Of a stretch of DNA of 64,000 bases, positions 49,359 to 59,605 are shown in pieces. Below the pieces are notes generated by a model, which worked only from the letters and a program-made list of their open reading frames with translations, was not told the origin of the DNA and searched no databases. The DNA is from Candidatus Saccharicenans sp. (GTDB taxonomy: Bacteria; Acidobacteriota; Aminicenantia; Aminicenantales; Saccharicenantaceae): positions 26,452 through 90,451 of the forward strand of contig JASEFX010000007.1 in the NCBI GenBank assembly GCA_030018265.1. Direction: 5' to 3'. A program made the translations under genes and the position numbers. Each line of letters opens with the position of its first letter. Position 1 is the first letter of the stretch.

Positions 49359-51470
49359 ATGGACAAAGAAATTCAGAAACTCACAGCCATAACCGCGGAA
49401 GATATGGCTGTGATTGAGGAAGAACTTAGAAAGAGTAACTGTCCGCTATCGACGGCGGAGCTGGCCGAAAGATTGGCTTTTGCTAAAACAGCCAGTCAAA
49501 GAAGTCAGCCAGTCAAGGTCTATAATCCTTACGCCCGTTACGAAGTCGGGGATTTTATCTACAAAGAATATGATGAAAACCTTCAGGTTGGCAGCAAGCT
49601 GACAGAACATTTCCAGGGCGGAGTGGTCTTAAGAGTTGTCAATAAGATTAATTATCCCGATTATCAATGTGAGATGCTGGAAGTTGATTACGACGGGGGC
49701 GGAACCTTCCGGAAGTACATCGACTACATGAAGAAAACCAGAACGCAGGTGCTGCTGCCGTCGAACCTGGAAAACAGAGGGCTGGAACCCGAGTTACTCA
49801 CTCCGGAGGAGGATCCCAGACAGACTGAACTGCCGCTTACCGAGAAGGACCTGAAGACACTCGAAAGAAATCTGCGCAAGCTGCTGGCTGCCTCGGAAGC
49901 CTTTTTTGGCTGGAATGATTACTGGCAGCTGGCCGAGAAGAAGCCCGAGATTCCCGAGGAGAAGATTAGAGAAATTTCTGAGGCGCTGTCCGGCTCGATT
50001 TCTTCTGAATCCACCGAAAATCTTGTTAGGCGTTTCTTTAACCTTGAGCCGTCTTCCGACCTCTTTGAACTGTACTGCCTGACGCTCGATCACCTTCTGG
50101 AGAAGAAATACCGGAAAGAATTTATCTGCCTGTCGACCGTCGGCTGGGGGCGCTGGCATCTGAAAAGCGTCTTGAACAACATGCCGCGAGGACTGCCGAT
50201 TTCGGCTCCTCCGGCAGAAGTTCCTGACCTGGGAGAGGTCGAAAGTTTGCAGCTTACCCGGGTGGATAATTTCCCGTTCAAAATTTACCTCACCTGGAGA
50301 GAAATACTTTCTGGAGCGGTCAGAGTCCCGAGGAGCCTCATCCGGGAATTCAACTCTCGCGAATACCAGATGGTGGATGATGAAGAGGGTAAGGTTTATA
50401 CCGTCTATTTCTACCCGGAAGGAAATTACCTCCTGGGCCTGGAAGAATACTTCAGAGCGAACAACATTCCCCAGGGAGCCAGCCTGACCGTTGACCGGAA
50501 AGGACCTGATAAGTTAACCTTCTGGGTTAAAAAGTCCAAGAAAAAAGCTTCCACATATTATCTTGAGTACAACCGTGAGACAGGTGCGTTTTCCATAACT
50601 CCTCAAGAGGTCTACACCCTGGCGATTCCCAACAAAAGTATATACCTGGAAAAAGAAATAGTGGCCAGGTTACTGCAACTTCAGGAAGAATGCGCCGGGC
50701 TCGACCTCAGACAGCTGCTCACCCGGATACTCACCACGCCGGAGCTCACCGCGAATACCAGGTCCCTGCATTTTCTCCGCCTTTATCACATGGCTGACCT
50801 GCTGAGACCGACAGCTCCCGAAGATGTGGAATACGTGCTCAACGCGGCTCCCGAATTTATAGCTTCTGAAAAGAAGGAAGGATATTTCATCTACCAGGAA
50901 ATCAAAATTCCAGAGGAGGTCCCGGCAGAAGAGGTCAGACTGGAGGAATCGCTGCTGTCGACCCTGGCCGAGCAGCTGACGTCCGGAGAACAGGAGCCTG
51001 CGGAGGCAGCTGAAGAGGAAGCGCCAGCAGAGCCTGAGATGGTTGAAGAGGCGGTGGAGGCCGAAACCGAAACTCCCGAGTTCGGTGCCGAACCCGAGAT
51101 TCAGATTCATCTGGAGCCACTGAAGAAAGAGAAAGAAAAAGAGAAGGAAAAAGAGAAAGAGAAGGAAATAGAGAAACCGGCGAAGAAGAAGAAGGAAAAA
51201 GAAGTCGGCCCGAAACCCCGCAAGAGCGAACGGCGGTTGATCGAAGAAGAAATCATGGAAGAGGAATCCGAGCGGGAAGCTCTGGAAGCTCTCAAAGCTC
51301 AGAAAGAGGAAGAACTGGAAGCGGCAGAAGCTGAGGAGGAGAGCCTGCCGATAGAAATTGAAGTTTCCAGAGAAGAGCCCAAATTCGGATTTTTCGCCGA
51401 GATGCTGAAATCGGCCCTGAGCAAAAAACAGCCGGTTCCTGGCGAAGAGGAGGAAGAAGAAAAGAAGTAA
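49359..51470 (+). CDS. Uncharacterised 703-aa protein with helix-turn-helix-like N-terminus and long charged Glu/Lys C-terminal tail
   Basis: Continuous 703-aa ORF 3 nt after the OTC stop; C-terminus contains KKEKEKEKEKEKEKEIEKPAKKKKEKE and Glu-rich segments. Confidence 0.75.
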   Translation: MDKEIQKLTAITAEDMAVIEEELRKSNCPLSTAELAERLAFAKTASQRSQPVKVYNPYARYEVGDFIYKEYDENLQVGSKLTEHFQGGVVLRVVNKINYPDYQCEMLEVDYDGGGTFRKYIDYMKKTRTQVLLPSNLENRGLEPELLTPEEDPRQTELPLTEKDLKTLERNLRKLLAASEAFFGWNDYWQLAEKKPEIPEEKIREISEALSGSISSESTENLVRRFFNLEPSSDLFELYCLTLDHLLEKKYRKEFICLSTVGWGRWHLKSVLNNMPRGLPISAPPAEVPDLGEVESLQLTRVDNFPFKIYLTWREILSGAVRVPRSLIREFNSREYQMVDDEEGKVYTVYFYPEGNYLLGLEEYFRANNIPQGASLTVDRKGPDKLTFWVKKSKKKASTYYLEYNRETGAFSITPQEVYTLAIPNKSIYLEKEIVARLLQLQEECAGLDLRQLLTRILTTPELTANTRSLHFLRLYHMADLLRPTAPEDVEYVLNAAPEFIASEKKEGYFIYQEIKIPEEVPAEEVRLEESLLSTLAEQLTSGEQEPAEAAEEEAPAEPEMVEEAVEAETETPEFGAEPEIQIHLEPLKKEKEKEKEKEKEKEIEKPAKKKKEKEVGPKPRKSERRLIEEEIMEEESEREALEALKAQKEEELEAAEAEEESLPIEIEVSREEPKFGFFAEMLKSALSKKQPVPGEEEEEEKK

Positions 51471-51483
51471 GCTGTCTTTTATA

Positions 51484-51502
51484 TCCTACTAAGATAGTAG
51501 GA
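51484..51502. terminator. Hairpin between convergent genes (possible bidirectional terminator)
   Basis: TCCTACT-AAGAT-AGTAGGA perfect 7-bp stem; weak U-tract. Confidence 0.35.
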
Positions 51503-51543: not shown

Positions 51544-52635
51544 TCAGAGGATGATCCGCTTGTTGCCGGCGCGGCTGGTCAGTCCGAGTTCGTCCAGGAA
51601 TTCCAGCAGCGGAATGGCATATTTTCTGGTAAGTCCGGTGAGCTTCTTAAAATCGCCTACCGTCAATTCTTTTTGACCCTGCCTTTTCAAATCAGCCAGT
51701 TTCTGTTTCAACTCCTCCAGCCATTCGGCATGAAGAAGGAATCCTTCCTGGCTCTTGACGATTTTCTTCTGCCGGAGGAGCATATCAAGAAGAGTATTCA
51801 GCCGGCTGGGATGAATCCGGAATTTTTTTAAAAGTTCATCGAAGGAAGAGGAAGAAAATTTTTCTTCGTGCAGCAGCTGTTCAATCGCCTGCAGAATGGC
51901 TGATTCTTCGGGCATCAGACGGATCTCAAAATCACGGCTGCAGACGAGGTCATTGTTCAGGGTTAGTTTGCCATCCCTGGCCAGACGGTTGAGCGCCAGC
52001 CTGAGCACCTGTTTCGGCAGGCCGAATCTCTCCTTCAGTTTTTTCACCGGCACGCCCGGCTCGGCCGGTCTTTTCTGATGATAGCTTTCAACAAACTCAC
52101 AGATTTTATCCAGCAGAAAAGTGAAACTCCTCTGGGCCAGCAGAAAAAGAGGTGAGAATTCCAGGATGTAAAGCACCCCTTCTTTCTCCAGCTCCATGGC
52201 CAGAGCTCTCAGGCGCTCCGGGGATAGCCGACAGAAACGAAGGAGTTCTTCTTCTCTAAGCCCCCGGATTCCAGCTTCCTCGGTCAGAGTCAGCAACATT
52301 TCTTTTTCTGAACCAGCCAGCCGCGCGAGGAGGGCTACAAGCCTGGCCTCCTTCATTTTTTCCAGCCGCTGAGCTTCGGGATAGAGCACCCGCAGCTCGA
52401 CTTCTTCTTTATCGGCGGGCTTAAAAGGAAGACGGTCATTCCAGGCCAGTTTTTCCGGCAACCTCGTCTTGACCAGAAGGAAGGGCTCTCCGCCCGGCTC
52501 CGAAGGGATGGAAGTGGCACTGGCCGCAGCCTGATATTTACGGCTGGCACGGAGCAGAAAGCCGGCGGCCTTTTCGCCGGGAGCTAACACCGGCTTATCA
52601 GCTGAAGCGTAGAAAATGGTTTCTGTGGATTTCAT
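51544..52635 (-). CDS. SelB C-terminal-like protein (winged-helix repeats) lacking the EF-Tu-like GTPase domain
   Basis: Domain III-like start, then winged-helix repeats, ending ELTVGDFKKLTGLTRKYAIPLLEFLDELGLTSRAGNKRIIL, the SelB last-WH signature. No GTP-binding motifs in the 363 aa or immediately upstream (rnr). Confidence 0.75.
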   Translation of the reverse strand: MKSTETIFYASADKPVLAPGEKAAGFLLRASRKYQAAASATSIPSEPGGEPFLLVKTRLPEKLAWNDRLPFKPADKEEVELRVLYPEAQRLEKMKEARLVALLARLAGSEKEMLLTLTEEAGIRGLREEELLRFCRLSPERLRALAMELEKEGVLYILEFSPLFLLAQRSFTFLLDKICEFVESYHQKRPAEPGVPVKKLKERFGLPKQVLRLALNRLARDGKLTLNNDLVCSRDFEIRLMPEESAILQAIEQLLHEEKFSSSSFDELLKKFRIHPSRLNTLLDMLLRQKKIVKSQEGFLLHAEWLEELKQKLADLKRQGQKELTVGDFKKLTGLTRKYAIPLLEFLDELGLTSRAGNKRIIL

Positions 52636-52647
52636 CTTTCCCGTATT

Positions 52648-54711
52648 TTATTTAATATTTTCAGCCAGCATAAATTCTAATTTTTTAAGCAGAGGATTAC
52701 AGCTCACCAGAATCACCTGAATTTTCTGCCCGAGCGAAAAGGTGGTGCCGGTATGGCGGCCGCGCAGCACTCTGGCGCTCCGGCGAAGGAAAAAGTCATC
52801 TCCCAGGGCTGAGTAGGGCACGAGGCCTTCGACAAAATAGTCGTCGAGTTCCACCACCAGGCCGGCCCGGTTGATGTCTGTGATAATGCCGCTAAATTCC
52901 TGCCCGAGTTTGTTCTTCAACAATCGGAGTATCCTCCATTCGACAAGAGCCCGCTCGGCTCCGTCAGCTATACGCTCTCTCTGGGAGCAATGGAGAGCGA
53001 TGGCCTCGAGTGGAAAAGGCCTGGGCTTTTTTCCGGCCAGAGCTCTTTTCAACAGCCGGTGGATCACCAGGTCCGGATACCGGCGGATAGGCGAGGTGAA
53101 GTGAACGTAAGCCTTCTGGGCCAGTCCGAAATGGCCGCAATTTTCTTCTGAATAATAGGCCAGCCGCAGCGAGCGGAGAACCTGGATGGCGATGAATTTT
53201 TCTTCCGGTTTGCCCTTGAAGGCTTCGATTACCTTCTGCAGGTCGGTGGACCTGATCTGGCCCGGGCGCGGCAGCGTCAGGTCGAAATGCACCAGAAGAT
53301 TCCTGAGCTTTTCCAGGTCTGATCGGGCTGGTGCCGGGTGCACGCGGTAGAGGCAGGGGTAGCCAAGGTCGGTAAGATGCCTGGCCACAGCCACGTTAGC
53401 CATCAGCATGAATTCTTCAATCAGACAGTGGGCTTCGTTGCGCTCCGAGGGAACCACGGCGGTCAGCATACCTTCCTGGTACACCAGCTCCGGTTCGACC
53501 AGGTCAAAGTCGAGGCTGCCCTGTCTCAATCTTTTTTCCTTGAGTATCCGGGCGAGTTCTCGCATCTCCATCAGGTCAGCAAGGATGTGCTGATAGCGCT
53601 GCTGGGTCTCCAGGTCGCCCTGAAAGATTTTGAAAACCTCGGTGTAGGTTAACCTTTCAACCGTCTGAATCACCGAGGGATGAAAATCAGCTCTGACCAG
53701 ATTGCCCCGCCGGTCTATTTCCATAATCGCAGAGACGGTAAGCCTGGGCACTCTTGGCCGCAGACTGCAGAGTCCGCTGGACAGCTTTTCGGGCAGCATC
53801 GGGATGGTCAGGTCAGGAAAGTAGACGCTCGTTCCCCTCTCGTAGGCTTCCCGGTCGAGGGCGGAGCCAGGCCTGACATAGTGGGAGACGTCGGCAATAT
53901 GAACGCCCAGAAGAAAATTTCCGCCGGGAAGTTTTTTTATGCTGACCGCATCGTCGAAATCCTGCGCCTTTTCCCCGTCAATGGTTACCGTTGGCCAGTT
54001 GCGGTAATCAACCCGACTGGCAAAATCCTGCGGTCCCGGGTCTTCCGATAATGCTTCAGCTTCAGCCCGAGCCTCATCTGAAAATTTATGTGGCAGGTTG
54101 AACTGGTTGATGATGACTTCAAGGTCAACTCCCTGATCGTCCTGATAGCCGAGTATCCTCTGCAGCTCTAAGGTGTTGCGGTTAATTTCGATGATCTGTC
54201 CGGGACGCGGTTTTCTTTTTCCTTTGATTTTAATCGCTATCGGCTCTTCAAACAGCGTATCCATCGGCAGGATGAAAGGCTGGTAGTTGATTTCCAGGAA
54301 CACCCCGTAGAGGGAAGCCCGGGCTTTTTTGACTATGCGCACAATCCGGCCTTCAGGTTTCCCCCCCAGACCTTTTTCTTTTACCACCACCTCCACCAGA
54401 TCTCCGGTGAGAGCTCCGGCCGTCTGGTGGGGTGGAATAAAAATGTCCTGACTTCCCTGGGTGGGGTCTTCCGGCGTGACAAAGCCAAATCCCCGCGGGT
54501 TGAGCGTAAAAATACCTCTCATCGTGGCCATCGGAGTTCGAGGGGCAATTCTTTCCCCTCTGAATTCTATCAATCCTTTTTTCTCCAGATATTTGAGCGT
54601 GGCCTGGAGTTTTTTTCTTTCCTTTTTGTTCAGCCTTAAAGCCCGGCTGAGATGATTAAGGGTCACGGGCTTTTTATGCTGGTTTATGAAATCGAGTATC
54701 TTTTTTTCCAT
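52648..54711 (-). CDS. rnr: Ribonuclease R / VacB
   Basis: RNB domain TVTIDGEKAQDFDDAVSIKKLPGGNFLLGVHIADVSHYVRPGSALDREAYERGTSVYFPD...HFTSPIRRYPDLVIHRLLKR; S1 C-terminus. Confidence 0.95.
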   Translation of the reverse strand: MEKKILDFINQHKKPVTLNHLSRALRLNKKERKKLQATLKYLEKKGLIEFRGERIAPRTPMATMRGIFTLNPRGFGFVTPEDPTQGSQDIFIPPHQTAGALTGDLVEVVVKEKGLGGKPEGRIVRIVKKARASLYGVFLEINYQPFILPMDTLFEEPIAIKIKGKRKPRPGQIIEINRNTLELQRILGYQDDQGVDLEVIINQFNLPHKFSDEARAEAEALSEDPGPQDFASRVDYRNWPTVTIDGEKAQDFDDAVSIKKLPGGNFLLGVHIADVSHYVRPGSALDREAYERGTSVYFPDLTIPMLPEKLSSGLCSLRPRVPRLTVSAIMEIDRRGNLVRADFHPSVIQTVERLTYTEVFKIFQGDLETQQRYQHILADLMEMRELARILKEKRLRQGSLDFDLVEPELVYQEGMLTAVVPSERNEAHCLIEEFMLMANVAVARHLTDLGYPCLYRVHPAPARSDLEKLRNLLVHFDLTLPRPGQIRSTDLQKVIEAFKGKPEEKFIAIQVLRSLRLAYYSEENCGHFGLAQKAYVHFTSPIRRYPDLVIHRLLKRALAGKKPRPFPLEAIALHCSQRERIADGAERALVEWRILRLLKNKLGQEFSGIITDINRAGLVVELDDYFVEGLVPYSALGDDFFLRRSARVLRGRHTGTTFSLGQKIQVILVSCNPLLKKLEFMLAENIK

Positions 54712-54736: not shown

Positions 54737-55378
54737 TCAATAATAAAAGAGCGCCAGATGAGGTATTCTGTACTGCTGGCGTCTGTCCCGGGCCAGATTC
54801 AATCGGCTGATTTCTTCCAGCTGACTGAGAGGCCGTCCAGGATAATCCTTTCCGGCAGCCTGGAGATAAAGTTGTTTTTCTTCTTCCCGGGCTAACTCCC
54901 ACAGCCGGCGGTCGAGTTCTTCGTCCAGAGATTCCAGCCGTGCCTCATCCACCGGTTCTCGCTTAAGGATTGAAAGGCCTTCCTCGAGCAGCGGCCTGAA
55001 TTGAGACATTTCCCCAGGTAGATTTTTCAGGCAGGCGGTAATCTCCTGGATAAGTTGCCTGGCCTTTTCGTTCTTCTCCGGCGCAGGAGGAGATTCCCGG
55101 CCGACGAGCCTTTCCTGATGCTGGGCATAAGCCCTGATTATTTCCTTCTCGCACTGGCTCAGCGAGTAGATGTTCTTTTTCCGGCGGCGGCTGATTTTCC
55201 GGGAAAAGGCTTTCTCGATGCCTTCAATCACCACTTCCGCCGGAATGTTCAGCTTTTCCCATTCGGAAATCAACTCTAAATCCCTGGGCGGCAGGAAGAA
55301 AATGCCGGGCTGATGCTTCAGAAAAGCGCGGGCGATTTTCTGATAATATTCTTTACGGTCTGAAGCGTCTGCAGTCAT
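54737..55378 (-). CDS. Hypothetical protein
   Basis: 213-aa ORF coupled to coaX (4-nt overlap); EYYQKIARAFLKHQPGIFFLPPRDLELISEWEKLNIPAEVVIEGIEKAFSRK. Confidence 0.6.
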   Translation of the reverse strand: MTADASDRKEYYQKIARAFLKHQPGIFFLPPRDLELISEWEKLNIPAEVVIEGIEKAFSRKISRRRKKNIYSLSQCEKEIIRAYAQHQERLVGRESPPAPEKNEKARQLIQEITACLKNLPGEMSQFRPLLEEGLSILKREPVDEARLESLDEELDRRLWELAREEEKQLYLQAAGKDYPGRPLSQLEEISRLNLARDRRQQYRIPHLALFYY

Positions 55379-56160
55379 TTCTCCAGCCTGCCGATTTCTC
55401 TGTTCTTTTCGTAAATAAGCCGGAGTCCCTGAAGCACGAGGTCCGGCTCAAAATGTTCAATTTCCGGAAGATCGCCAACCACCAGCCCGGCCAGTCCTCC
55501 TGTGGCCACCACCACCGGCCTGCCTTTCAGCTCTTCTGAAATTCTGGCGATGATGTGCCTGACCAGCCCGACATATCCAAAATAAAGGCCGGACTGCATG
55601 CTGGTGACAGTGTTTCGTCCGATCACGGATTTTGGTTTGCGAATTTCGATCCGGGGAAGTCTGGCTGTCCTCAGATAGAGCGCTTCGGCTGAAATCATGA
55701 GACCGGGAGCGATCGCTCCTCCGAGATATTCGCCTTTTTCCGAGACCACATCGAAGGTGGTGGCGGTGCCAAAATCCACCACCACACAGGGACCTCCGTA
55801 TTTTTCAAAGGCGGCGCAGGAAACCACAATCCGGTCGGAACCCACCTCGGCCGGATTCTCATAGAGAATGGGCATGCCGGTTTTAAGACCGGGACCGACG
55901 ACAAGCGGCTTCACCCGGAAAAAATTCTCGCAGGCAGTCTGAATCACCGGAGTGAGCGGCGGCACCACCGAAGAAATGATCGCTCCTTTTATTTTTTCAG
56001 GAGCAAACCGTCGTTGTTCCAGCAAACAGTTCAGGATAATGCCATACTCATCGGCGGTCTTTTCCCGGTCGCTTTTGATTTTCCAGTCGGCCAGGAGTTT
56101 TTTGCCCTGAAACAGACCTATCCCGGTGGTGGTGTTGCCGATATCGAAAACCAGAAGCAT
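55375..56160 (-). CDS. coaX: Type III pantothenate kinase
   Basis: MLLVFDIGNTTTGIGLFQGKKLLADWKIKSDREKTADEYG; VDFGTATTFDVVSEKGEYLGGAIAPGL. Confidence 0.95.
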   Translation of the reverse strand: MLLVFDIGNTTTGIGLFQGKKLLADWKIKSDREKTADEYGIILNCLLEQRRFAPEKIKGAIISSVVPPLTPVIQTACENFFRVKPLVVGPGLKTGMPILYENPAEVGSDRIVVSCAAFEKYGGPCVVVDFGTATTFDVVSEKGEYLGGAIAPGLMISAEALYLRTARLPRIEIRKPKSVIGRNTVTSMQSGLYFGYVGLVRHIIARISEELKGRPVVVATGGLAGLVVGDLPEIEHFEPDLVLQGLRLIYEKNREIGRLEK

Positions 56161-56196
56161 TTTTTTCTCCTCGAAGTTATTTTATAAAAAGTAATC

Positions 56197-56958
56197 TTAA
56201 AAAACCTTGATTATTTCCGATGCATGAAAAATGCGCGTTTCTCCGTCGACTCTGACCTTCAGGCCGCCCCTTTCCTCCAGATCCTGAAATTCTACAGGCA
56301 GCTGGCCCTCAACGGTTTGCAGCAGAAGTTTCTGTCCTGCTTTAAAGGAAAGTCTTTTCCGGTATGAAGCTAGGACGAGGTCAAAATGCCCTTTTTCCAG
56401 ATTATTATACCAGACTTTAAGCCTTAACCCAAGGTGGCGGAAAAGGTCCAGCGGTTTCCAGGTCTTTTCTGTTAACAGAAAAAGGGAGGTAGCCAGATTT
56501 TTAATCTCCGGTGGAAAGTCGGAAAGGCGATGATTCAGGTTTATCCCGATGCCGGCAACCGCCCGGGTCTGCCGGCCTCCTGCGCTCCCTCCCTCGCACA
56601 GGATGCCACCGAGTTTTTTTCCCTGATAGACGAGGTCATTCGGCCACTTCAATTGTATGCGAACTCCGGAAAGCTCCTCTATGGCTTCGGCTGCAGTCAG
56701 CCCGCAGGCTGCCGGCAGGAGGTTAAAACTGGAGGCTGACGGTCTCAGAATGAAGGAAACATACAGCCCTTTGCCGCGAGCCGAATGCCAGGTGCGACCT
56801 TTTGTGCCCCGGCCGGCGATTTGCTCTTCGGCCACCACCGCCGTGCCTTCCGGAAAATTAAGGGCGGTCAATCGTCTGGCTATATCCATGGTGGAAAAAG
56901 CCAGAGAAAAGATGAAAAGCGGGTAACCGGGACAGGAATCGCGGTCAAAAACCGGCAT
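56197..56958 (-). CDS. birA: Biotin-[acetyl-CoA-carboxylase] ligase (no HTH domain)
   Basis: VVAEEQIAGRGTKGRTWHSARGKGLYVSFILRP; LKWPNDLVYQGKKLGGILCE; GIGINLNH. Confidence 0.93.
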   Translation of the reverse strand: MPVFDRDSCPGYPLFIFSLAFSTMDIARRLTALNFPEGTAVVAEEQIAGRGTKGRTWHSARGKGLYVSFILRPSASSFNLLPAACGLTAAEAIEELSGVRIQLKWPNDLVYQGKKLGGILCEGGSAGGRQTRAVAGIGINLNHRLSDFPPEIKNLATSLFLLTEKTWKPLDLFRHLGLRLKVWYNNLEKGHFDLVLASYRKRLSFKAGQKLLLQTVEGQLPVEFQDLEERGGLKVRVDGETRIFHASEIIKVF

Positions 56959-56971
56959 GGCAGTTTGATTT

Positions 56972-59605
56972 TTATGAACGCTCGTTGAGCTCGCCCAGAC
57001 TTTTTTCCAGCGTGGCCTGCTTCAGCTTGAGTTCAGCCAGGCGCTTCTGGTGGTCTTCAATCACGGCGGCTGGCGCTTTCGCCAGAAAATCAGGGTTGTT
57101 CAGCCTGACTTCGAGTTTCGCTATATCTTCCCTGACTTTCCTTAGTTCCTTTTCCAGACGCTCTTTTTCCTGTTCGAGGTTAACCGGAGCGGCTACCAGC
57201 AGTCCGATTTTTGTCGTGCCGGCCACTCCCTTGAGCAACTTTTTGTCTGCGGGCAGTTCTTCCACGTACTCAATCCGGTCCACTCCGGCCAGCTGGCGAA
57301 TGGCTGCCTCATAGGGTCCAGCCACCTTCCGGCTGGTCTCCCCGCCTTCAACCCAGAGGTTCACCTGCTCCCTGACCGGGATTTTATTCTCGGCCCGGAT
57401 GCTCCGGACCTCAGAGATGATCTCCTGGAGGAACTTCATGGTGTTCTCGGCTTCTTCGTCCAGCCAGCTATCGGGAAATTCCGGCCAGCTGGCTTCCAGC
57501 AGAGAACGCCCGGTTCCGGGCAGGTGGTGCCAGATCTCTTCGGTGATGTAGGGCATGAACGGATGCAGCAGCCGTAAAATCTTTTCCAGGGTGTCTTCCA
57601 TCACGGCCATCGTGTGTTTGTTGCCCGCGCGCAGTTCGGGCTTGATGAACTCTATGTACCAGTCGCAGAATTCATGCCAGATGAAGTGGTAAATTATCTC
57701 GGAAGCTTCGTAAAACTTGTACTGTTCGAGCGCGGAGTTGAGCTGCCGGGTTATCCGGAGCAACCGGCTCCTTATCCAGCGGTTGGGAAGAGTCAGCTGA
57801 GCCGGGTCCGGTTCAAAAGGTTCTTCGCTCAGGTTCATCAACACAAAGCGCGAGGCATTCCAGATTTTATTGGCAAAGGCCCGGTAGCCGGCCATTCTTT
57901 CTTCGGAAAGCGCGATATCCATTCCGGGGACAGCCAGAGAAGACAGGGTGAAGCGGAGGGCATCTGTGCCGTATTTTTTGATCATTTCCAGCGGGTCGAT
58001 GATGTTGCCCTCGGATTTGCTCATCTTTCTTTTTTTCATATCGCGGACGAGACCGTTGATGAAGACCTGGCGGAAAGGAACGTCCTTCATGAATTTCATG
58101 CCCATCATGATCATTCTGGCTACCCAGAAGAAGATGATGTCAAAACCAGTAGCCAGCAGGTCTGTGGGATAGAAAACCTTGAGGTCTTCAGTCTGTTCCG
58201 GCCAGCCCATGGTGGCAAAGGGCCAGAGAGCTGAAGAGAACCAGGTGTCCAGGACGTCCTCATCCTGAACGAGCGAACCGCCACACTTTTCGCAGGCAGC
58301 CGGTTCTTCCATTACCACCATTATGTGCTGGCAGTTCTGACAATAATAGGCGGGTATGCGGTGCCCCCACCAGAGCTGCCGCGAGATGCACCAGTCATGG
58401 ATCCGGTACATCCAGTCGAAATAGGTTTTCGTCCAGTTCTCGGGAATGAAGACTATTTTCTTCTCTTCCACCACCCTGATGGCTTCGCGCGCCAGCGGCT
58501 CGATTTTTACAAACCACTGCCAGGAGAGATGAGGCTCGATGACGGTTTTGCAGCGATAGCAATGTCCGACAGCGTGGGTGTAGTTTTCCACTTTCACCAG
58601 GAGTCCAAGCTCCTGGAGTTTTTCCACCACCTTCTGCCGGCAGACAAAACGGTCAAGTCCCTGGAATTCAGGTCCGGCCGCTTCAGTCATCCGTCCGCTG
58701 CCGTCGATGACGATGACCTGTTCCAGGTTGTGTTTACGACCGAGTTCGAAATCCACCGGGTCATGCGCCGGCGTGACCTTCACCGCTCCGGTGCCAAAAT
58801 CCTTTTCCACCCGTTCGTCAGTGATAATCGGAATCAAGCGATTCTGGAGCGGAAGGAGAACTTTCTGGCCGTGGTATTTCAAATATCGCTCGTCTTCCGG
58901 ATGAACCGCCACGGCGGTATCGCCGAGCATGGTTTCCGGCCGGGTGGTGGCCACCACCACTCCGTCATCTGTTCCCGGAATCGGGTATTTGATGTACCAG
59001 AGCTTGCCCTGAACTTCTTTATGTTCGATTTCTATGTCTGAGAGGACCGTCTGGCAGCGGGGACAGCGGTTCACCAGATAATAATCGCGATAGATCAAAC
59101 CTTCCCTGTAAAGCTGCACAAAAACATACTTGACCGCCCGGGAAAAGCCTTCATCCATGGTGAACCTTTCCCGGGACCAGTCGAGGGCACAGCCGAGTCT
59201 TTTCAGCTGTTCGGTGATCAATCCGCCACATTTGTTCTTCCAGTCCCAGGCGATCCTCAGGAATTCTTCGCGTCCGACCTTCTCCCGGCTGAGTCCTTTC
59301 TCCGCCAGTTGCTGTTCGATGACGTTGTGAACGGCGATCGAAGCATGGTCAGTTCCCGGAAGCCACATCGTGTTGTAACCCTGCATCTTTTTCCAGCGGA
59401 CGATGATATCCGGCAGGGTAAAGCAGAGGGCATGCCCCATATGGAGCACTCCGGTCACGTTCGGAGGTGGCAGCACCATGGAAAATTTCGGTCCGGGCGA
59501 GTGGACATCGGCCACAAACAATTTTTCGTCCAGCCAGAACTTTGACCATCTGGCTTCTACCGGTTTCGGGTCATAAGCTTTGTCCAGGAGTTTTTTCTCT
59601 CTCAT
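56972..59605 (-). CDS. valS: Valyl-tRNA synthetase
   Basis: PPPNVTGVLHMGHAL; NTMWLPGTDHASIAV; KMSKSEGNIIDPLEMIKKYGTDALRF; C-terminal coiled coil. Confidence 0.97.
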   Translation of the reverse strand: MREKKLLDKAYDPKPVEARWSKFWLDEKLFVADVHSPGPKFSMVLPPPNVTGVLHMGHALCFTLPDIIVRWKKMQGYNTMWLPGTDHASIAVHNVIEQQLAEKGLSREKVGREEFLRIAWDWKNKCGGLITEQLKRLGCALDWSRERFTMDEGFSRAVKYVFVQLYREGLIYRDYYLVNRCPRCQTVLSDIEIEHKEVQGKLWYIKYPIPGTDDGVVVATTRPETMLGDTAVAVHPEDERYLKYHGQKVLLPLQNRLIPIITDERVEKDFGTGAVKVTPAHDPVDFELGRKHNLEQVIVIDGSGRMTEAAGPEFQGLDRFVCRQKVVEKLQELGLLVKVENYTHAVGHCYRCKTVIEPHLSWQWFVKIEPLAREAIRVVEEKKIVFIPENWTKTYFDWMYRIHDWCISRQLWWGHRIPAYYCQNCQHIMVVMEEPAACEKCGGSLVQDEDVLDTWFSSALWPFATMGWPEQTEDLKVFYPTDLLATGFDIIFFWVARMIMMGMKFMKDVPFRQVFINGLVRDMKKRKMSKSEGNIIDPLEMIKKYGTDALRFTLSSLAVPGMDIALSEERMAGYRAFANKIWNASRFVLMNLSEEPFEPDPAQLTLPNRWIRSRLLRITRQLNSALEQYKFYEASEIIYHFIWHEFCDWYIEFIKPELRAGNKHTMAVMEDTLEKILRLLHPFMPYITEEIWHHLPGTGRSLLEASWPEFPDSWLDEEAENTMKFLQEIISEVRSIRAENKIPVREQVNLWVEGGETSRKVAGPYEAAIRQLAGVDRIEYVEELPADKKLLKGVAGTTKIGLLVAAPVNLEQEKERLEKELRKVREDIAKLEVRLNNPDFLAKAPAAVIEDHQKRLAELKLKQATLEKSLGELNERS

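Follow-up and report, generated by a model that had tools for sequence, protein, structure and literature searches.

The gene at the centre of this analysis encodes a stand-alone, SelB-derived protein (SA hereafter) and lies in the window, that is, the whole 64,000-nucleotide stretch of DNA that was analysed, from a genome that is 90.6% complete and close to Candidatus Saccharicenans (Aminicenantes). The preliminary description had reported a 363-aa frame here with rnr immediately upstream on the same strand, and both observations hold: the frame lies exactly at 51544-52635 on the minus strand, its C-terminus is LTVGDFKKLTGLTRKYAIPLLEFLDELGLTSRAGNKRIIL, and the gap of 12 nt that separates it from rnr is preceded by a complete RNase R (TIGR02063, 693 bits). 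The parts of SA and the surrounding genes are given in Table 1. A search of the window with Rfam returned one tRNA only.

Table 1. Genes around SA and domains within it, with positions in the window.
Feature	Position	Strand	Evidence
Conserved 703-aa gene, function unassigned, Pfam matches all below cut-off; faces SA convergently throughout the order	49359-51470	+	
SA, stand-alone SelB-derived protein, 363 aa	51544..52635	-	ORF; Pfam SelB-wing_2/3; phmmer to 1lva; AlphaFold2 pLDDT 90.8
Winged helix 4 (SelB-wing_3), SA residues ~303-363	51547..51729	-	Pfam, alignment, Foldseek
Winged helix 3, SA residues ~242-302	51730..51912	-	phmmer, AlphaFold2 model
Winged helix 2 (SelB-wing_2), SA residues ~169-236	51928..52131	-	Pfam, AlphaFold2 model
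Winged helix 1, SA residues ~108-168	52132..52314	-	phmmer, AlphaFold2 model, Foldseek
Degenerate SelB domain III beta-barrel, SA residues ~1-90	52366..52635	-	AlphaFold2 model, Foldseek, HH, PF25461 in homologue L179
rnr, RNase R, directly upstream of SA; without lysine-rich C-terminal tail	52648..54711	-	TIGR02063 693 bits, synteny
Conserved 213-aa gene, function unassigned, 5' of rnr in the same gene run; weak DnaB_2 match	54737..55378	-	ORF, Pfam, synteny
coaX-like, birA-like and valS-like genes, order conserved	55375..59605	-	Names by eye from sequence

The SelB winged-helix homology claimed for SA is borne out by Pfam, which places both SelB-wing_3 (3.5e-17) and SelB-wing_2 (1.8e-7) above their gathering scores, and by phmmer, which aligns residues 112-362 with the complete 1lva fragment of Moorella SelB, comprising its four winged helices, at 8.9e-24. 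The G-domain is missing, as had been proposed: Pfam finds neither the EF-Tu-like GTPase (GTP_EFTU) nor EF-Tu domain 2 (PF03144) in SA, and 363 aa leave no room for the latter. These missing matches are meaningful because the complete SelBs of relatives, in the same kind of Pfam search, show GTP_EFTU (at about 1e-34), domain 2 and the beta-barrel. The SelB equivalog model TIGR00475 matches SA by its C-terminal part only, at 39.4 bits against a cut-off of 242. An AlphaFold2 model built from an order-wide alignment (mean pLDDT 90.8) has an N-terminal beta-barrel of six strands followed by four winged helices, and its top Foldseek matches are 1lva (1.3e-16) and the ribosome-bound full SelB 5lzb (5lzb_z); since the alignment to 5lzb spans 366 columns, the barrel occupies the place of SelB domain III. 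Consistent with this, an HH comparison aligns SA residues 4-110 collinearly with SelB 281-393, which is domain III (P 5e-6), and PF25461 (Beta-barrel_SelB), which has no Pfam match in the SA of the window itself, scores 27.4 bits in the homologue L179 (cut-off 27). Taken together, these results firmly identify SA as a SelB without its GTPase domain and domain II, which keeps a degenerate domain III and the four C-terminal winged helices of domain IV. That the N-terminal ~90 residues are a degenerate domain III is an addition to the preliminary description.

Homologues of SA in family f11 are about 470 aa long and carry some 110 additional N-terminal residues (L180 8002-9414, L181 7197-8612 and L182 7639-9048). 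This extra region aligns collinearly with EF-Tu domain II by HH at an insignificant P of 0.01, and the model is poor there. As a statistically unsupported suggestion, the extension may be a remnant of EF-Tu domain II, in which case these homologues could represent a stage on the way to losing the GTPase part.

A search of the window's genome for selA, a GTPase-bearing selB and tRNA-Sec, as the preliminary description had proposed, found none of them. The other TIGR00475 matches are, by eye, IF2, LepA, EF-G and EF-Tu; the eight best-scoring of 13 matches to the tRNA-Sec model, which were those inspected, are ordinary tRNA-Ser, His, Leu and Trp; and for selD all matches fall below the cut-off, the two inspected looking like PurM and ThiL. 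No selA was found in any of the 19 genomes of the genus. Within the order, selA scores above its cut-off in 22 of 60 genomes and SelB in 20 of 60, none of them in the window's genus, and across the class selA is found in 38 of 143 genomes, all except one in Aminicenantales. Many of the selenocysteine-decoding relatives encode a complete SelB besides SA, and in the SelBs examined the GTPase, domain 2, barrel and wings are all present, as is usual. SA thus occurs with selenocysteine decoding, without it, and alongside complete SelB; it is independent of selenocysteine decoding. Because it persists in species without selenocysteine, it has probably taken on a different function.

These results bear directly on the proposal that SA is half of a split SelB, its GTPase half encoded elsewhere and the pair supporting UGA recoding. 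The part missing from SA is exactly the GTPase and domain II, as such a split would have it, but the searches of the genome turned up neither a SelB-type GTPase nor selA nor tRNA-Sec, the 19 genomes of the genus have no selA, and the relatives that do decode selenocysteine have complete SelBs besides SA. Barring a highly divergent selenocysteine machinery, I regard this explanation as very improbable. SelB is nevertheless the nearest known kind of protein. Domains III-IV of bacterial SelB (1lva, 1wsu, 2uwm, 5lzb) have the same fold and order as SA, a barrel and four winged helices, and the recognition-helix and wing residues of winged helix 4 are retained in SA. It differs from SelB in having no GTPase and no domain II, in its degenerate domain III, in falling short of the equivalog cut-off, in the lack of co-occurring selenocysteine genes (no selA or tRNA-Sec found in its genome) and in its usual linkage to rnr. 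The archaeal aSelBL, like SA, derives from SelB and is retained where selenocysteine is not used, but its domain make-up mirrors that of SA: it has the SelB-like GTPase and is missing the C-terminal domain that recognises SECIS (PMC3037878). SA, which is the reverse, falls outside the definition of aSelBL. NCBIfam lacks a model of the stand-alone family as such, and literature searches, whose coverage mostly left out subscription journals, returned no account of it.

SA is an old family of single origin that is nearly universal in its class (Aminicenantia, according to the source lineage). Searches of 60 genomes of the order, 59 relatives plus the genome of the window, found it in every one, with a few copies cut by contig ends. 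A profile built from the order matches 134 of 143 class genomes, and as full SelB alone may account for a few of them, SA is present in about 130 of 143. A broader profile matches all 52 class genomes listed, including three missed by the narrower one, and nearly all of its matches listed outside the class are frames of at least ~600 aa, that is, full SelBs, the short exceptions lying mostly at contig ends. One frame of 289 aa outside the class (G202, L211) is of the SelB C-terminal type and is a possible second stand-alone protein, or perhaps a SelB with a frameshift. In genus g4 there are SelB frames of ~1040 aa, which appear to be a read-through of an arginine-rich upstream frame and were not taken for real extensions. 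In the tree, all stand-alone proteins fall on one side of a branch with support of 96/86 and the in-class SelBs form a separate clade (100/100), although an AU test does not reject SA and the in-class SelBs as sisters (p 0.31).

Among congeners the dN/dS of SA is approximately 0.10-0.19, and the protein is under purifying selection. The preliminary description had also suggested a relic of lost selenocysteine decoding, and this may stand as an account of the origin of SA. As a decaying, non-functional remnant it is hardly credible: selA is indeed absent from the genus, but SA is intact, monophyletic and class-wide, evolves at a dN/dS of ~0.1-0.2, keeps a winged helix 4 core that is 71% conserved and is retained beside full SelB.

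That the C-terminal domain of SelB binds SECIS RNA is established by solved complexes (1wsu, 2uwm, 2ply and 2pjp), winged helix 4 being the SECIS-binding domain. In SA, winged helix 4 is by far the most conserved part, with a mean pairwise identity in the order of 64% (71% in its core) as compared to 35-41% for winged helices 1-3 and 23% for the barrel. Across the class R337, E345 and D348 are invariant, and T333, K338, I341, T353, R355 and R360 come close to invariance; all these residues lie in winged helix 4. Its motifs match those of winged helix 4 in ordinary Acidobacteriota SelB, and the winged helix 4 of the in-class SelBs has diverged from it. Because selection preserves the recognition helix and wing, I infer that winged helix 4 of SA would still bind an RNA hairpin as SelB binds SECIS. 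Could the hairpin be SECIS itself, with SA competing with or modulating SelB in the selenocysteine-decoding members and having an added role elsewhere? The preservation of winged helix 4 and the coexistence of SA and SelB in many genomes are what this would predict; however, most class members are without selA and the winged helix 4 of the SelB that SA would compete with has diverged from its own, so this seems quite improbable.

An RNAalifold scan that covered rnr-SA and its flanking sequence in 17 congeneric genomes found no RNA target in cis. The single strong signal is a palindrome, TCCTACTA-NNN-TAGTAGGA, located 3' of SA at 51484-51502 of the window, in the space that separates SA from the convergent 703-aa gene. 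Of 16 congeners compared, eight keep the stem with a variable loop, one has a degenerate copy and seven lack it, and four other copies in the genome (G000 C15:36440, C9:20769, C11:42267 and C72:81814) are located at the 5' ends of unrelated genes or close to them. On these grounds the palindrome was rejected as the RNA target of SA; its absence from congeners and its copies at 5' ends make it look like a DNA operator, putatively that of some regulator. Might SA be such a regulator, a winged-helix DNA-binding transcription factor descended from SelB? Winged helices are common DNA-binding folds, SA has weak Pfam matches to GntR, MarR and similar families, and an operator-like palindrome adjoins its gene. 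Nevertheless, those Pfam matches fall below their cut-offs, the palindrome is absent from seven of 16 congeners that have SA, and the surface that SA keeps is the SECIS-reading winged helix 4, as in the RNA-binding SelBs. A DNA-binding role is therefore unlikely.

In Aminicenantales the recurrent gene order is valS-birA-coaX-X-rnr-SA, facing the convergent conserved gene, and relatives share the rnr-SA layout wherever flanking sequence suffices, a check that the preliminary description had asked for. Since the layout is repeated in this way, an assembly rearrangement or a frameshift that removed an adjacent GTPase is excluded. In all 64 Aminicenantales loci measured, rnr is the next gene 5' of SA; 14 of these junctions overlap by exactly 4 nt, 20 are separated by 0-30 nt, 15 more are overlaps that hinge on the placement of the start codon and 15 have longer gaps. 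Elsewhere the linkage loosens: families f9-f11 have rnr-pgi-SA, family f8 has pgi-SA with rnr not seen, and family f12 has neither rnr nor pgi near SA. In one f8 genome (L176) a pgi-like gene is directly 5' of SA. At L177 (4989-7658, G098:C33) a single frame of 889 aa joins glucose-6-phosphate isomerase to stand-alone SelB wings; pgi was named from the Pfam PGI match in this fusion and by sequence in the other loci.

In E. coli, the lysine-rich tail of RNase R recruits the enzyme to stalled, tmRNA-rescued ribosomes (PMC3949413). The rnr genes of the window, L094-L162 and L178-L182 were compared for this C-terminal tail, and in most of the order RNase R is without it. The RNase R of family f11 keeps its K-rich tail and f11 also has SA, which weakens the idea that SA substitutes for the tail. 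Co-transcription of rnr and smpB is a precedent for the pairing of rnr with an RNA-binding partner (PMC3534368). SmpB shares with SA a gene position directly 3' of rnr, with overlap, but the two proteins are unrelated and no link to tmRNA was seen for SA.

Of the three explanations in the preliminary description, a repurposed RNA-binding protein co-expressed with RNase R is the best supported, its RNA target and its partnership with RNase R being what I infer. I give an even chance to SA being a repurposed, selenocysteine-independent RNA-hairpin-binding protein that probably works with RNase R. SelB has lost its GTPase and domain II, its domain III has degenerated and its four winged helices have stayed, and winged helix 4 would bind an RNA hairpin in the way that SelB binds SECIS. 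More weakly, in Aminicenantales SA would be co-translated with RNase R and act as its RNA-binding partner, which might hold structured RNA, present it, or bring the tail-less RNase R to a substrate or to the ribosome, in a pairing analogous to that of SmpB and RNase R elsewhere.

Gene adjacency does not prove that SA and RNase R interact, and as the linkage to rnr is missing in f12 and unseen in f8, a partnership cannot be universal. It is quite possible, if somewhat less than evenly so, that SA is a selenocysteine-independent RNA-binding regulator or ribosome-associated factor unrelated to RNase R, and that its linkage to rnr is operon packing. The gene run that holds SA also carries the unrelated housekeeping genes valS, birA and coaX, which speaks against the partnership, f12 keeps SA without rnr nearby, and in f8 SA adjoins or is fused to pgi. 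Operon packing is harder to reconcile with an rnr that is next upstream in every Aminicenantales locus measured and separated from SA by a single gene in three other families, and with the frequency of 4-nt overlapping junctions. The most specific form of the partnership, in which a SECIS-type RNA reader was cut from SelB before the class radiated and is now a dedicated, hairpin-specific, selenocysteine-free partner of RNase R, is a tentative and rather doubtful proposal; if true, it would constitute a new two-protein system of RNA decay or ribosome quality control.

Matches to SelB winged helices alone are no proof that a genome uses selenocysteine. The existence of SA raises the question of which hairpin RNAs it reads and whether it directs RNase R. 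Finally, a GTPase-less SelB in nearly all members of a bacterial class would mean that a translation factor's RNA-reading module is able to exist by itself.
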